From assembly GCF_900103715.1 (NCBI RefSeq), contig NZ_FNHL01000004.1, positions 248,001 to 312,000 on the forward strand: a stretch of DNA of 64,000 nt. Reading direction: 5' to 3'. Positions within the stretch are counted from its first letter, which is position 1. Each line of letters begins with the position of its first letter. The translations under genes and the position numbers were made by a program. The stretch comes from Halogranum gelatinilyticum (GTDB lineage: Archaea; Halobacteriota; Halobacteria; Halobacteriales; Haloferacaceae). Positions 6,290-59,661 of the stretch are shown one piece after another. Under the pieces are notes generated by a model that saw only the letters and a program-made list of their open reading frames with translations, did not search any database and was not told the DNA's origin.

Positions 6290-6373
6290 GAATCGGTATT
6301 CGTGTGGCGTCACATAAACGCCACGGGGCGCGTCTGACGGGCGTCTGCCTCGCGACAGCCGATGGCGATGGCT

Positions 6374-54978: not shown

Positions 54979-57933
54979 ATGGACGTCAGTCAGCTGTTAT
55001 CTACGTTCACGTTCACGTCGGTTCAGGCTGCTGCGATCTTCTTCGGTGTGATCTGGACGACGGTCAACTTCTACACGTATACTCCAATCCTAAAGTACGG
55101 GACGGACAGGCTGGTCGAACGAGTCACAGGCCGGTCACACGCGACGTCGGTCGACCCCCAGAGCGTTCCGCAGTCGGAGTGGCCGACAGTCGAGGTGTTC
55201 ATCTCCGCCTACGACGAGGCCGCAGTTATCGAGCAGGCGATACGGTCGACACTAGCGACGGAATATCCCAGTGAGAAGCGTACCGTAACGGTGCTCACCG
55301 AACCCGGAGACGACGAGACGAACGCCGTAGTGAGCAGTCTCCGCGAGGAGTTGGAGTTCGTCCACCGGGTGGTTCCCGAGGGGTATCCCGGCTCTCCGAA
55401 CAAGCCACGGGCACTCAACTACGGGTTCGCCTTCAGTGACGCAGAGGTTATCGGCGTCATCGATGCCGAGGACGTCGTCGGGGAGACTCTCCTCAGTCAG
55501 GCCGCAGTGACGATCAGTGCCGGGAAGCCCGACTTCGTCCACGGCGTGCTCGACATGGTAAACGAGAACGACGGGTGGCTGAACCTGTTGTTCCGCGCGG
55601 AGTACGGCTACTGGTTCCGGCTGGTCGCACCGGGGTTCGTCGCCTCCGGTTTCGACATCCCACTGCCGGGGACGACCTGCTTCTTCGACCGAGAAGTGTT
55701 GACGGAGGTGGCCGCCCGCCGCGTCGAGCGGCTCGGTGAGACCTGGACAGAAGAAGCGCGGACACAGGCACGTGAGCTGGGTATCGGTGCCGTGAAGCCG
55801 TGGGACCCGACGAACGTGACGGAGGATTTCGAGATCGGCTTGATCCTCAGTTCGTACGGGTTCGACGCCGGATACGTTCCCGCGGTGACGCGAGAGGAGT
55901 CACCGCTCGAACTCAACGACTGGATTGAACAGCGTACTCGTTGGCAGAAAGGGAAGGTGTTCACCTTCCTCCGCTACCGGAAGAGTCTCCCGAAGGGAAT
56001 CAACCACAAGTTCCACTTCCTGTATCAGTCACTGTTGCCACATCTCGGGCCGATCAACATCAGTGCCGTCGTGATCATCTTCATCCTCTCGCGGCTGTTG
56101 GCCTACGAGCCGCTCCCGATCGTCCGGATCGTGCTCAGCCTCGGGTTGGCGTTCATGGTGATCGCGGCCGGGGCCACTCTGGTCGGTTACTGGCTGGCTT
56201 CCGACGCACCGCGGCGAACGCGTCTGCGTCGGTCCGTCATCGTCGCGGTGGGGCTGTTCCCGTACTGGGTACTCCAGTGGGGTGCAGACCTCCGTGCGCT
56301 TCACCGGACGTATCTCGGCCGGTTCCACTGGGAGCACACGACACATCTCGGGCGGAACCTGACGGAGTCGATAACCGAGTCACGGCGGGACACCGAGTTC
56401 GACCCGACGTACACCCTCGATGGACTGCACCGAGAGCTGCTCTTGGCCGTTGTTCTCGTCGGTGCCGTTCTGCTCCGGCTCCCGCGGCTGGGGACCCAGA
56501 GCCTTTGGACCGACGAGATCTACTCCGTCGCCGTCCGTGCGAGCCTCTCGGTTCCGGACCTGCTCGTGATGCCGCAGGATCCCCATCCGCCGCTGTACTA
56601 TCTCCTGTTGCGGGGGTGGATGACCGTGTTCGGGACGTCACCCGGGGCCGTGCGGGCATTCTCGGTGCTCTGTTCCGTCGCAGCTGTGTATGTCGCGTAC
56701 TCGCTCGCGACGCGGCTGTTCGACGACCGGACCGGTCTCGTCGTCGCCGCGTTACTGGCGGTCTCGGTCTTCCACATCCACGTCGGGCGGACGGCACGGA
56801 TGTACGCTCTCTTCGTGTTCCTCACGACAGTGTCGTGGTACAGCCTGCTCGACGTGCGAACCGGGAGTCTGCTCCAGCGCGCCGGCTACGCGGTCGCGAC
56901 GGCGGCAGTCCTGTACGTCCACGTCTTCGGCGTGTTCGTCGTCGCAGCCCAGTGGGCGTATCTCGCCGTCAGTGCTCCGCCGTCCGGTGACCGCGGTCCG
57001 GAGCGACGGGCGGTCGCCGGAGTCGGGGTCCTGTCGCTGCCGTTGGTATATCTCTTCGGACAGGTCGTCTACCGGATGGCGACGTCGACCGGCCCGTCGC
57101 TCGACTGGATTCCGGCACCGACCGCCGACCTGCTGAGTCGAATCGGCCTGTTGTACGCGGGCTATCCGGAGATCTACCCGATTCTGGGTGGGAGCGTCGA
57201 AACACGGATGATCGCCACCGTGGTCGCGGTCCTCTTTCTCGTCGCTATCGCGTTCAGTATCTTCGAGTACGACGGCGAGAACGGCTTCGAACTCTCGCCG
57301 CCGCGGGCGAACGCACAGATGCTCGCGCTGGCGGTTGTCCCGATCGGTGGGCCGCTGTTGGTCTCGCTGCTGTACGAGCCGGTGTTGGTACCCCGGTATA
57401 CGATCCCTGCGACCGTCGGCGTGTTCGTTCTCGTCGCCAACGGGCTGACGAACGTGCCGGTCCGGTCCGGACGGATCGCCACGGTGGCCGTCGTCCTCGT
57501 CGGTCTCCTGGCGATGGGCGGGGTGTATCACTCAACGGATTCGTTCGAGGACTGGCAGGGGGCGGCGAACGCCATCGAGACCGAGGCGTCCGACACCGAC
57601 GCCATCGTCTACCAGCCTCAGTGGACCGACACGGACGTCGAGTACTACTACGACGGCCCGGCACTGACCTCGTACCGGCTCCCGCCCGACGACGGCGACC
57701 TCTCGGCCGCCGACCGCGGAAGGCTACGGGAGGTCGTCACCACTCACGAGCAGTTCTGGTACGTACAGTACGGTGCCCCGTACGACGCACCGACGAGTCG
57801 GTGGCTTCGGGAAAACGCCGCACAGGAATCGGTTCAGGAGTTCGGAATCGTCACCGTCTACCGGTTCACCGTCCCGGAGGAGCCGGACCGCACACAAGGG
57901 GTTTCGGAGACGCCACGGACGGGCGAATCCTGA
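54979..57933 (+). CDS. Fused GT2 glycosyltransferase and PMT/ArnT-like glycosyltransferase
   Basis: A 984-residue membrane protein with two enzyme modules. Residues 1-465 are a processive family-2 glycosyltransferase: N-terminal helix (13-37), catalytic domain 68-340 with DAED (162-165), TED (281-283) and QRTRW (318-322), then helices at about 362-405 and 418-435. Residues about 480-984 are a GT39/GT83 (PMT/ArnT-like) lipid-linked-sugar transferase with the first-loop acidic motif LWTDEIYS (509-516) and DPHPPLYYLLLRGW (534-547), about ten helices and a C-terminal extracytoplasmic domain (YYDG, WYVQYGAP). The GT2 part could make a polyprenyl-linked sugar or polymer and the C-terminal part pass it on. 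The frame at 54971 is out of phase; the ATG at 54979 is used. Confidence 0.88.
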   Translation: MDVSQLLSTFTFTSVQAAAIFFGVIWTTVNFYTYTPILKYGTDRLVERVTGRSHATSVDPQSVPQSEWPTVEVFISAYDEAAVIEQAIRSTLATEYPSEKRTVTVLTEPGDDETNAVVSSLREELEFVHRVVPEGYPGSPNKPRALNYGFAFSDAEVIGVIDAEDVVGETLLSQAAVTISAGKPDFVHGVLDMVNENDGWLNLLFRAEYGYWFRLVAPGFVASGFDIPLPGTTCFFDREVLTEVAARRVERLGETWTEEARTQARELGIGAVKPWDPTNVTEDFEIGLILSSYGFDAGYVPAVTREESPLELNDWIEQRTRWQKGKVFTFLRYRKSLPKGINHKFHFLYQSLLPHLGPINISAVVIIFILSRLLAYEPLPIVRIVLSLGLAFMVIAAGATLVGYWLASDAPRRTRLRRSVIVAVGLFPYWVLQWGADLRALHRTYLGRFHWEHTTHLGRNLTESITESRRDTEFDPTYTLDGLHRELLLAVVLVGAVLLRLPRLGTQSLWTDEIYSVAVRASLSVPDLLVMPQDPHPPLYYLLLRGWMTVFGTSPGAVRAFSVLCSVAAVYVAYSLATRLFDDRTGLVVAALLAVSVFHIHVGRTARMYALFVFLTTVSWYSLLDVRTGSLLQRAGYAVATAAVLYVHVFGVFVVAAQWAYLAVSAPPSGDRGPERRAVAGVGVLSLPLVYLFGQVVYRMATSTGPSLDWIPAPTADLLSRIGLLYAGYPEIYPILGGSVETRMIATVVAVLFLVAIAFSIFEYDGENGFELSPPRANAQMLALAVVPIGGPLLVSLLYEPVLVPRYTIPATVGVFVLVANGLTNVPVRSGRIATVAVVLVGLLAMGGVYHSTDSFEDWQGAANAIETEASDTDAIVYQPQWTDTDVEYYYDGPALTSYRLPPDDGDLSAADRGRLREVVTTHEQFWYVQYGAPYDAPTSRWLRENAAQESVQEFGIVTVYRFTVPEEPDRTQGVSETPRTGES

Positions 57934-58065: not shown

Positions 58066-59661
58066 ATGAGCCTCCCAGATCCAGCCGTCGTCGACGCCGC
58101 GCTACGCCGTCTCGACACTGACTCGCTCGTCGCCCTCGCCGCCGACCTGTGGGCCGCCCGCGGCTTCGACGTCGCTCGCGACGGGAGCCGCCTCGTCGTC
58201 GACGGCGACACCGTGGTCTGGGTCGTCGGCGACCGTCGAGTCGGCAGTCCGACCGTCCCGGCCGGCTCGGTCGACGTCGTGCTCGCGCCGGGGGCTGGCC
58301 GTACCGCACGGCGCGTCGCGGACGAGGCGGACGCTCGCCTCGTCGCCGCCGCCGGGCTTCGCGAGATGCTCTGGTACGCCGTCGAGCGGCCCGTCTGGCG
58401 GACGCTCTGTGCGGAGCATCTCGGCGCGGCACCGGAGGCACTCACCCCGCCGCTGTCGACGCGGCTGCGTGCTGCCGGGCGCGACGCTGCCGACACGGCC
58501 GAGGCGTCGCTCGCCCGCGTCACAGCGGTGCCGTCACCGGCCGTCGCTGTCGTCGCCGTAATCCTCCTCGTTGCCAGCGTCGGGCTGGTCGCGCCCGGCC
58601 TGACCGGGACGGGTGACTCCGGCGGCGAGTTCGGCGCGCTCGGCAGTCTCGGCGGCTTCGGCGGCGGGGACGCCAGTACCGGAAGCGAGGAGGCGTCGGG
58701 CGCGAGGGCCGAACCGACCGAAGCGACCGGGACTCCCGCGTCGGACGCGGCCGGGAGCGACAGTGGCGACGGAGAGGCGTCGGTAGCCGGGGACGATGGA
58801 GAGGCGTCGATAGCCGGTGTCGAGTCGATACCGGGAGTGACGCGCAACGGAATCGAGAACCTGAGTGCGTTCACCGCTGCACACAGCCGCAGCGTCGCGA
58901 ACCGGTCGTACACGCTCTGGTTCGACAGCTACCGGCAGGACGTCGGCCGCCCGGAGACGCGCGTCCAGGGGGACGTCGACATCCAGGTGGAGGGCGAACG
59001 GTATCTGCTCGTCAGCGAAATCGAGAGGAACGGGACGCGGACGCGGGTCGGCCGAGTCTACTACGACGGCGAGGGGTGGTACGTGAGCGAACCGGATGAC
59101 GGGGACGGGACGGACGGGTCGGGAGCGACGAACGAGTCGGGACCGGCGAACGCGACGGGCAACGGCACGGCAGACTGGCGACCCGCCGAGTCGAGCGAGA
59201 CCGCCAGCATCGGTCCGAGTCCGTTCGACTACCGGGAGTTCGGTCTCGAACGGTATCTCGCGACACCGAACACGGTGGTCGCGGCGCGTCTGGAGGGTGA
59301 CGACGGCCGCACCCGGTACCGTATCATCGGCGACGGGACGCCCTCTGGCCCCTTCGCCACGCAGATGACCGAGTACAGCGTCGTCGCCATCGTCGACAGC
59401 GAGGGCTTCGTCAGCGACCTCACCGTCGAATACCGCATCGAGGCGAAACAGCCCTACCGGGTCCGCTTCGAGTGGACCTACGGTCGGCTCGGCGAGACGA
59501 CAGTCGAGTTGGGGAACGAGACGCTCGGGTCGCAAAACGAGACGGTCGAAGCGGTCAAAGCGGTCCAGACGGGAGCGGCCACGCCAGCAATCGAGACGGA
59601 GCCGACCGCCACAGCGGTCGTGTCGCGTGGTGCAGCGGCCGACGTGACGTGGCCGGTGTAG
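58066..59661 (+). CDS. Single-pass membrane protein with LolA-like outer domain
   Basis: A 531-residue protein. Residues 1-145 are cytoplasmic and resemble a restriction-endonuclease-like fold (LAADLWAARGFDVARDGSRLVVDGDTVVWVVGDRR) but lack the usual Asp and Glu-x-Lys residues. One membrane helix follows (about 157-178), then a Gly/Ser/Asp-rich linker (180-265). The outside part (about 270-500) has beta strands like ANRSYTLWFDSYRQD, YYDGEGWYVSEP, FATQMTEYSVVAIVDSEGFVSDLTVEYRI, recalling haloarchaeal LolA/LppX-like envelope proteins. Fold assignments are by pattern only. It is 132 bp downstream of the glycosyltransferase gene. Confidence 0.72.
   Translation: MSLPDPAVVDAALRRLDTDSLVALAADLWAARGFDVARDGSRLVVDGDTVVWVVGDRRVGSPTVPAGSVDVVLAPGAGRTARRVADEADARLVAAAGLREMLWYAVERPVWRTLCAEHLGAAPEALTPPLSTRLRAAGRDAADTAEASLARVTAVPSPAVAVVAVILLVASVGLVAPGLTGTGDSGGEFGALGSLGGFGGGDASTGSEEASGARAEPTEATGTPASDAAGSDSGDGEASVAGDDGEASIAGVESIPGVTRNGIENLSAFTAAHSRSVANRSYTLWFDSYRQDVGRPETRVQGDVDIQVEGERYLLVSEIERNGTRTRVGRVYYDGEGWYVSEPDDGDGTDGSGATNESGPANATGNGTADWRPAESSETASIGPSPFDYREFGLERYLATPNTVVAARLEGDDGRTRYRIIGDGTPSGPFATQMTEYSVVAIVDSEGFVSDLTVEYRIEAKQPYRVRFEWTYGRLGETTVELGNETLGSQNETVEAVKAVQTGAATPAIETEPTATAVVSRGAAADVTWPV

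Follow-up and report, generated by a model that had tools for sequence, protein, structure and literature searches.

Why would a haloarchaeon place two glycosyltransferases (GT), one with its active site at the cytosolic face of the membrane and one with its active site outside, on a single polypeptide? This question is raised by a gene at positions 54979 to 57933 (forward strand) of a 64 kb stretch of Halogranum gelatinilyticum DNA (contig NZ_FNHL01000004.1, positions 248,001 to 312,000; the window hereafter). The gene encodes a 984-residue protein with a BcsA-type GT2 half followed by a GT39/GT83-type GT-C half. A preliminary description of the gene proposed that the GT2 half synthesises the lipid-linked sugar on which the GT-C half draws, with a role in S-layer or exopolysaccharide glycosylation. 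Our analysis agrees on the identity of the two halves and favours a different division of labour. The fusion is read here as a polysaccharide synthase joined to its own decorating transferase, which would be supplied with a dolichyl-phosphate sugar by GtrB- and GtrA-type proteins. We give this reading a probability of about one half.

The fused frame and its conserved motifs

The gene runs from ATG to stop over 984 codons with zero internal stops. Glyco_tranf_2_3 (PF13641) matches residues 69–325 (E 6.4e-25; 88.9 bits against a cut-off of 27) and PMT_2 matches residues 536–665 (E 8.7e-12; 46 bits against a cut-off of 26.1), and PF13632 also matches the GT2 half. No PilZ match was found in the Pfam scan of the protein. 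The NCBIfam matches are all far under their equivalog cut-offs, and the top ones are an XrtP-associated transferase, PgaC/IcaA and CelA.

All motifs named in the preliminary description are present, and all 14 fused sequences in the alignment retain the motif residues of both active sites. The CESA-like GT2 half (residues 1–459; 54979–56355) contains the first acidic motif EPGD (108–111; 55300–55311), in which E108, P109 and D111 are invariant, and the metal/donor motif DAED (162–165; 55462–55473), in which D162, A163 and E164 are invariant. The catalytic base motif TED (281–283; 55819–55827) and QRTRW (318–322; 55930–55944), the QxxRW motif of synthase-type GT2 enzymes, are invariant throughout. 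The GT2 half thereby carries the sequence marks of processive synthases, namely the acidic motifs, TED and QxxRW. The GT-C half (residues 478–965; 56410–57873) was delimited by PMT_2, secondary structure and structural comparison, and ends in a soluble alpha/beta part from about residue 860. Its GT39/GT83 type is indicated by the PMT_2 domain together with the DE motif that follows its first transmembrane (TM) helix in the first outer loop, LWTDE (509–513; 56503–56517); DPHPP follows (534–538; 56578–56592). E513 and the HPP residues (H536, P537, P538) are invariant, and D512 and D534 are kept in at least 90% of the sequences. This retention argues against a GT-C half that serves as a passive membrane anchor or lipid binder devoid of transfer activity, a reading that the long branch of the window's GT-C half in its tree (1.07) would favour and that we consider quite improbable.

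Recurrence and age of the fusion

Each half also occurs alone in relatives, as would be expected if a frameshift or misassembly had joined two ordinary neighbouring genes; standalone GT-C genes are common and standalone GT2 genes are rare. Such an artefact is ruled out by recurrence and by codon-position composition. The GC content at third codon positions is 0.75–0.89 over ten 300-base blocks of the gene, codon-position GC is coding-like throughout, and no break is seen at the junction between the halves. Fifteen other fused loci lie in separate assemblies, and the trees of the two halves match. The frameshift join and the absence from relatives that the preliminary description had raised against its own proposal are therefore both contradicted.

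In total, we count 16 fused loci, distributed over 15 haloarchaeal genomes. The family sample (170 genomes) contains the fusion in eight (G000, which is the window's genome, G028, G031, G035, G047, G058, G071 and G167); that of G071 was detected as two pieces of one 1037-residue frame. The order sample (392 genomes, overlapping the family set; E 1e-20) adds six (G176, G362, G387, G403, G407 and G435), and a contig search adds two fused loci of Halorientalis pallida. The same domain order and a similar length, in single frames, are thus found in 13 other genomes and in the two H. pallida loci. Carriers include Haloferax profundi, Haloferax marisrubri, Salinigranum salinum, Halonotius roseus, Halohasta salina, Haloarcula pellucida and Halorhabdus amylolytica. 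In the contig search a single-protein query returned no loci and an alignment query returned 13, of which 11 span both halves and two (L081, L083) hold the GT2 half only. The phylum sample (392 genomes, E 1e-60) gave matches in nine genomes, and every fused one among them was known from the narrower samples; a search of this depth thus showed no fusion beyond the order.

The tree of GT2 halves (26 rows) and that of GT-C halves (38 rows) give largely matching groups. The first clade comprises Salinigranum, Halohasta, Halonotius, Halorhabdus, G407 and the second H. pallida copy, and the second group comprises the window, Haloferax, Haloarcula, Halorientalis, G071, G362, QS_1_68_20 and H. marisrubri. 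One old fusion event would be the simplest reading of these sequences. It is not proven, because the deep nodes of the GT-C tree are poorly supported (13% where fused and standalone proteins part; 60% for the placement of Salinigranum in its clade) and there are several long branches.

Two observations concern individual members of these trees. The two H. pallida fusions (L073 and L077) belong to different clades, and one has GtrB, GtrA and GH5 genes adjoining while the other has none. A 228-residue protein at L067:9258-9944, which shares 58% identity over 182 residues with the GT2 half of the window's protein and is its closest relative, stops within the GT2 domain and is likely a decayed fusion or a fragment.

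Fold and membrane topology

An AlphaFold (AF2) model of the fusion built from 14 homologues has a mean predicted local distance difference test score (pLDDT) of 81.1 and a predicted template modelling score (pTM) of 0.75. The pLDDT falls below 50 at residues 460–477, the linker between the halves (56356–56409). A model of the GT2 half made without an alignment (pLDDT 37.7) was set aside. By VIA comparison, residues 13–448 align to PcManGT of Pyrobaculum calidifontis (PDB 6yv7) with Z 28.2 over 333 of 345 residues, and BcsA (Z 24.8) and hyaluronan synthase (HAS; Z 23.2) also align starting at the N-terminus. From about residue 478 onward the model matches Pmt4 (Z 28.3), an oligosaccharyltransferase (OST; Z 27.6) and ArnT (Z 26.8). 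A profile search of the GT2 half against the PDB likewise gives PcManGT as the best solved match (E 1.6e-9); plain phmmer found nothing there.

Averaged hydropathy places TM helices of the GT2 half at residues 11–29, 356–374 and 381–399, none at 412–445, and the next one at 486–504. The GT2 half is accordingly described as an N-terminal TM helix, a cytosolic GT-A domain, two TM helices and one interface-like helix. With the GT-A domain placed inside, residues 446–480 are cytosolic and LWTDE and DPHPP lie outside, as in GT-C enzymes, which agrees with the family topology invoked in the preliminary description. By analogy with BcsA, the helix at 412–445 and the segment FHWEHTTH (449–456; 56323–56346; W451, T454 and H456 invariant in 14 of 14) would be counterparts of the interface helix and the gating loop. 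The GT-C half would then occupy the place of the last BcsA TM helices, a topological suggestion that draws on the anatomy of BcsA. Some BcsA rows in the VIA comparison extend to model residue 822, which may or may not mean that the GT-C helices fill that place.

The similarity to PcManGT bears directly on the proposal in which a sugar is loaded onto dolichyl phosphate by the GT2 half inside and the GT-C half uses the same lipid-linked sugar outside on a protein or glycan acceptor. The GT2 half has a PcManGT-like fold with a small TM part, and three TM helices fit this small fold. Transfer of one lipid-linked sugar between the halves explains the similarity best. According to the table of a review, PcManGT is Mn-dependent and acts with dolichyl (di)phosphate-linked substrates (PMC12715860). 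The proposal keeps some standing because the best solved match of the GT2 half acts on such substrates, and we nevertheless judge it unlikely. The QRTRW motif, invariant in the 14 aligned sequences, speaks against it; GtrB/DPM-type enzymes are not known to have this QxxRW-type motif.

In a related reading, which we rate slightly lower still, the GT2 half would extend a dolichyl-diphosphate-linked glycan inside and, after flipping, the GT-C half would add a further sugar from dolichyl phosphate; the product would be an N-glycan, an O-glycan or a lipid-linked capsule unit. The GT-C half matches the fold of ALG12, OST, ArnT and Pmt, which act in lipid-linked glycan routes. The same review table lists PcManGT as moving mannose to dolichyl-diphosphate-linked intermediates (PMC12715860). 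Against this extension of a lipid-linked glycan, no AglB-type oligosaccharyltransferase was found among the chosen neighbours run against Pfam, a set in which AglB itself was not searched for.

Gene neighbourhoods of fused and standalone loci

Genes were called in roughly 8–10 kb on each side of the loci, and chosen neighbours were named by Pfam. Profiles built from the named neighbours were run on all fused loci and on 22 standalone GT-C loci. A GtrA-like and/or GtrB-like gene adjoins 8 of the 16 fused loci (L053, L054, L055, L056, L060, L062, L063 and L077); seven have both and L060 has GtrA only. Glycoside hydrolases of GH5 or GH10 are found in seven (L053, L054, L055, L060, L062, L063 and L077), and an epimerase is near two (L056 and L062). 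The neighbour profiles detected GtrA/GtrB in 0 of 21 standalone GT-C loci and GH5/GH10 hydrolases in 0 of 21 (L123 omitted). The corresponding Fisher p values, uncorrected for kinship, are 3e-4 for GtrA/GtrB and 1e-3 for the hydrolases. The four GT2-only loci (L064–L067) gave no GtrA, GtrB or hydrolase match with these profiles.

Several choices define these counts. L003, a 4.4 kb contig that cannot show neighbours, was retained among the 16. L123, a 17th locus whose GT-C half is cut by the contig end and which has GtrB, GtrA and GH5 genes adjoining, was excluded from both sides because its GT2 half lies out of view. Control matches below 60 bits to the GtrB, CESA or epimerase profiles (L104, L070, L107 and others), as well as matches to the separate GT2 genes at L069 and L118, did not score as GtrB or hydrolase neighbours. 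Profile matches are not independent, because the profiles were built from some of the counted neighbours; the Pfam calls are independent. All six first-clade loci have such neighbours, against two of the ten remaining loci, which means that the count is in part a matter of shared descent. The make-up of the neighbourhood varies by locus, with two GtrB types, two GH5 groups plus GH10, and upstream or downstream placement, which suggests a functional link rather than a frozen inherited order. In Halonotius roseus (L055), a co-directional run with 4-base overlaps or a 2-base gap comprises the fusion, a GtrB gene, a GtrA gene and a translocase-like gene of PF04018. A twin-arginine-like N-terminus was read on seven of the eight neighbour hydrolases.

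A profile of five neighbour GtrB proteins matches the adjacent GtrB genes at 306–409 bits; at E 1e-4 it gave no match to any fused protein among the 16. If the fused GT2 half itself made the sugar used by the GT-C half, the separate GtrB would be redundant. The proposal that the GT2 half serves the GT-C half in this way is therefore not favoured. It also leaves the adjoining hydrolases and the BcsB neighbours of bacterial relatives unexplained, as does the extension of a dolichyl-diphosphate-linked glycan.

Bacterial relatives of the GT2 half

On bacterial plasmids or chromosome-sized records, relatives match this half over residues 25–473. BcsB is annotated in two (L138 and L141) of the ten bacterial records with surroundings examined. 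In Geobacillus stearothermophilus the gene order is nucleotidyltransferase, BcsB, GT2 and a GT39-annotated gene; in Listeria the GT2 gene lies between a DUF2334 gene and BcsB, which is followed by a diguanylate cyclase. The fused-GT2 profile scores 193 bits on the Geobacillus GT2 and 101 bits on the Listeria GT2. The Listeria membrane protein encoded two genes upstream of GT2 has no Pfam match. Neither BcsB nor GT39 is annotated in the Mycobacterium (L137), Frigoribacterium (L139) and Priestia (L142) records. L143–L148 are unannotated, and chosen open reading frames only were run; in Nonomuraea (L147) a PMT_2-like gene abuts GT2 and scores 19.8 bits, below the cut-off. Within haloarchaea, two standalone GT-C genes (L069 and L118) come directly after, or overlap with, a GT2 gene of chitin-synthase-like type, which belongs to a different GT2 group from the fused half. 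The Geobacillus, L069 and L118 arrangements indicate that a synthase-type GT2 and a GT-C protein are paired in more than one form.

Two further relatives were recorded. A GT2 relative of Hyphomicrobiales UR115 (L143:3222-9777) carries an MshEN domain; its neighbours are a 10-TM protein whose gene overlaps it and a GH113 hydrolase encoded divergently. On a plasmid of Halorussus halophilus (L149:4601-7128) a DUF2334 gene lies directly before GT2, in an order like that of Listeria.

Proposed function and its weighing

The exported GH5/GH10 hydrolases of 7 of the 16 loci and the BcsB genes beside bacterial GT2 relatives point to a polymer synthase. In the proposed scheme, the CESA/BcsA-like GT2 half would polymerise nucleotide sugars into a beta-linked glycan on the cytosolic side and perhaps assist its extrusion. 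The GT-C half on the same chain would attach side sugars to this glycan at the outer face. Its donor would be a dolichyl-phosphate sugar made by a GtrB-type enzyme, not by the fusion, and flipped by a GtrA-type protein, in line with the usual roles of GtrB as maker and GtrA as flipper of lipid-linked sugars. The PF04018 carrier translocase of one locus could recycle the lipid, and the hydrolases may trim the product or set it free, as happens in other synthase-dependent systems. The activities, sugars, linkage and export ascribed to the fused protein are presumed. Polymerisation with decoration is favoured because it accounts at once for the hydrolases, for GtrB/GtrA as separate genes and for BcsB beside the bacterial relatives. 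As to the roles first suggested for the gene, this scheme agrees with the exopolysaccharide option, and no evidence from the analysis ties the fusion to the S-layer.

A more specific version, which we regard as speculative and rather unlikely, is that the GT2 half supplies half a polymer tunnel which the GT-C helices complete, and that the emerging chain is decorated per unit at the GT-C site from dolichyl-phosphate sugar during export. Such a tunnel-completing fusion would represent a synthase-dependent archaeal exopolysaccharide route with export-coupled decoration.

Several findings weigh against polymerisation with decoration. Averaged hydropathy gives the GT2 half only about three TM helices, whereas six are described as lining the tunnel of BcsA or HAS, and its top solved match by both sequence and VIA Z is a dolichol-dependent enzyme. 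Eight of the 16 fused loci, including that of the window, are without GtrA, GtrB or hydrolase neighbours (L003 being too short to show any), and the GH5 neighbours of the others could serve scavenging. GtrB is widespread, with members in 110 of the 167 genomes scanned in the archaeal family, so its co-occurrence with the fusion is uninformative. The Geobacillus GT39 gene scores 25.2 bits with PMT_2 against a cut-off of 26.1, and the GT-C profile does not match it. In the 64 kb window, the GT2, GT-C, GtrA, GtrB, GH5, GH10 and epimerase profiles match only the fusion gene; within their reach, this agrees with the earlier statement that no agl-type gene adjoins it. The window's genome gave no PF00150 (GH5) match, and its one GtrA match is unlinked to the fusion, in a GtrB–GtrA pair on another contig.

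This pair lies at 6333–10110 of L124 (G000:C1:818500-838400), divergent to a gene for an 803-residue DUF2298 membrane protein, and a second, weaker GtrB-family match is found at G000:C4:183724-184404. Since the window's fusion belongs to a lineage without clustered partners, its function is read from relatives, and we infer that its protein uses the unlinked GtrB–GtrA pair.

Comparison with known systems

The GT2 half shares with BcsA/CESA synthases the GT-A core, the DAED/TED/QxxRW motifs and the fold, and its bacterial relatives, for example that of Listeria, adjoin BcsB. Unlike BcsA, it has about three TM helices and no PilZ match, and a whole GT-C enzyme probably stands in place of the last TM helices, as judged from topology. 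PcManGT differs in being a chain of 345–356 residues without a GT-C half and, in the review table, in having a dolichol-linked acceptor (PMC12715860). With Pmt4 and ArnT (GT39/GT83) the fusion has in common PMT_2, the DE motif of the first outer loop and the fold; it differs in that its GT-C half sits behind a GT2 half. The arrangement also resembles the three-component glycosylation of the Shigella O-antigen type, in that GtrA and GtrB adjoin the GT-C-bearing gene in 7 of the 16 fused loci; the logic of GtrA, GtrB and a GT-C enzyme is outlined in PMC11127046. In contrast to that system, the haloarchaeal GT-C is fused to a synthase-type GT2, and GtrA/GtrB are not beside the window's gene.

The AepG pathway of Haloarcula hispanica has in common with the proposed scheme the feeding of haloarchaeal exopolysaccharide by a dolichyl-phosphate sugar. 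AepG, a dolichol-phosphate glucuronosyltransferase, feeds exopolysaccharide and not the S-layer N-glycan, which implies that a haloarchaeal exopolysaccharide can depend on such a sugar without touching S-layer N-glycosylation (PMC9943897). AepG is a standalone DPM-like GT2, and the available text on it does not describe a GT2/GT-C fusion and presents archaeal exopolysaccharide biosynthesis as little known (PMC9943897). Each half and each neighbour of the fusion is of a known kind, and the fused arrangement was absent from a literature search limited to openly licensed papers. The fusion joins two routes that are mostly handled separately, synthase-dependent polymerisation and outer-face Gtr decoration. 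Its recurrence, with GtrA, GtrB and hydrolase neighbours in relatives, makes it a testable exopolysaccharide candidate; laboratory genetics exist for Haloferax, one of the carrier genera.

Other genes at or near these loci

A 531-residue protein is encoded 132 bases downstream of the window's fusion (58066–59661, forward strand). It has no Pfam or NCBIfam match, and its profile matches nothing in the other fused loci or the control loci. The standalone GT2 relatives at L065:8967-11434 and L066:8535-11137 exceed the GT2 half in length, and each overlaps or abuts a conserved gene, the L065 copy of which is a DUF7139 gene. A membrane protein of 440–450 residues without a Pfam match adjoins one fusion (L056:11759-13087) and lies near one standalone GT-C gene (L108:2636-3994); it is perhaps another GT-C enzyme.

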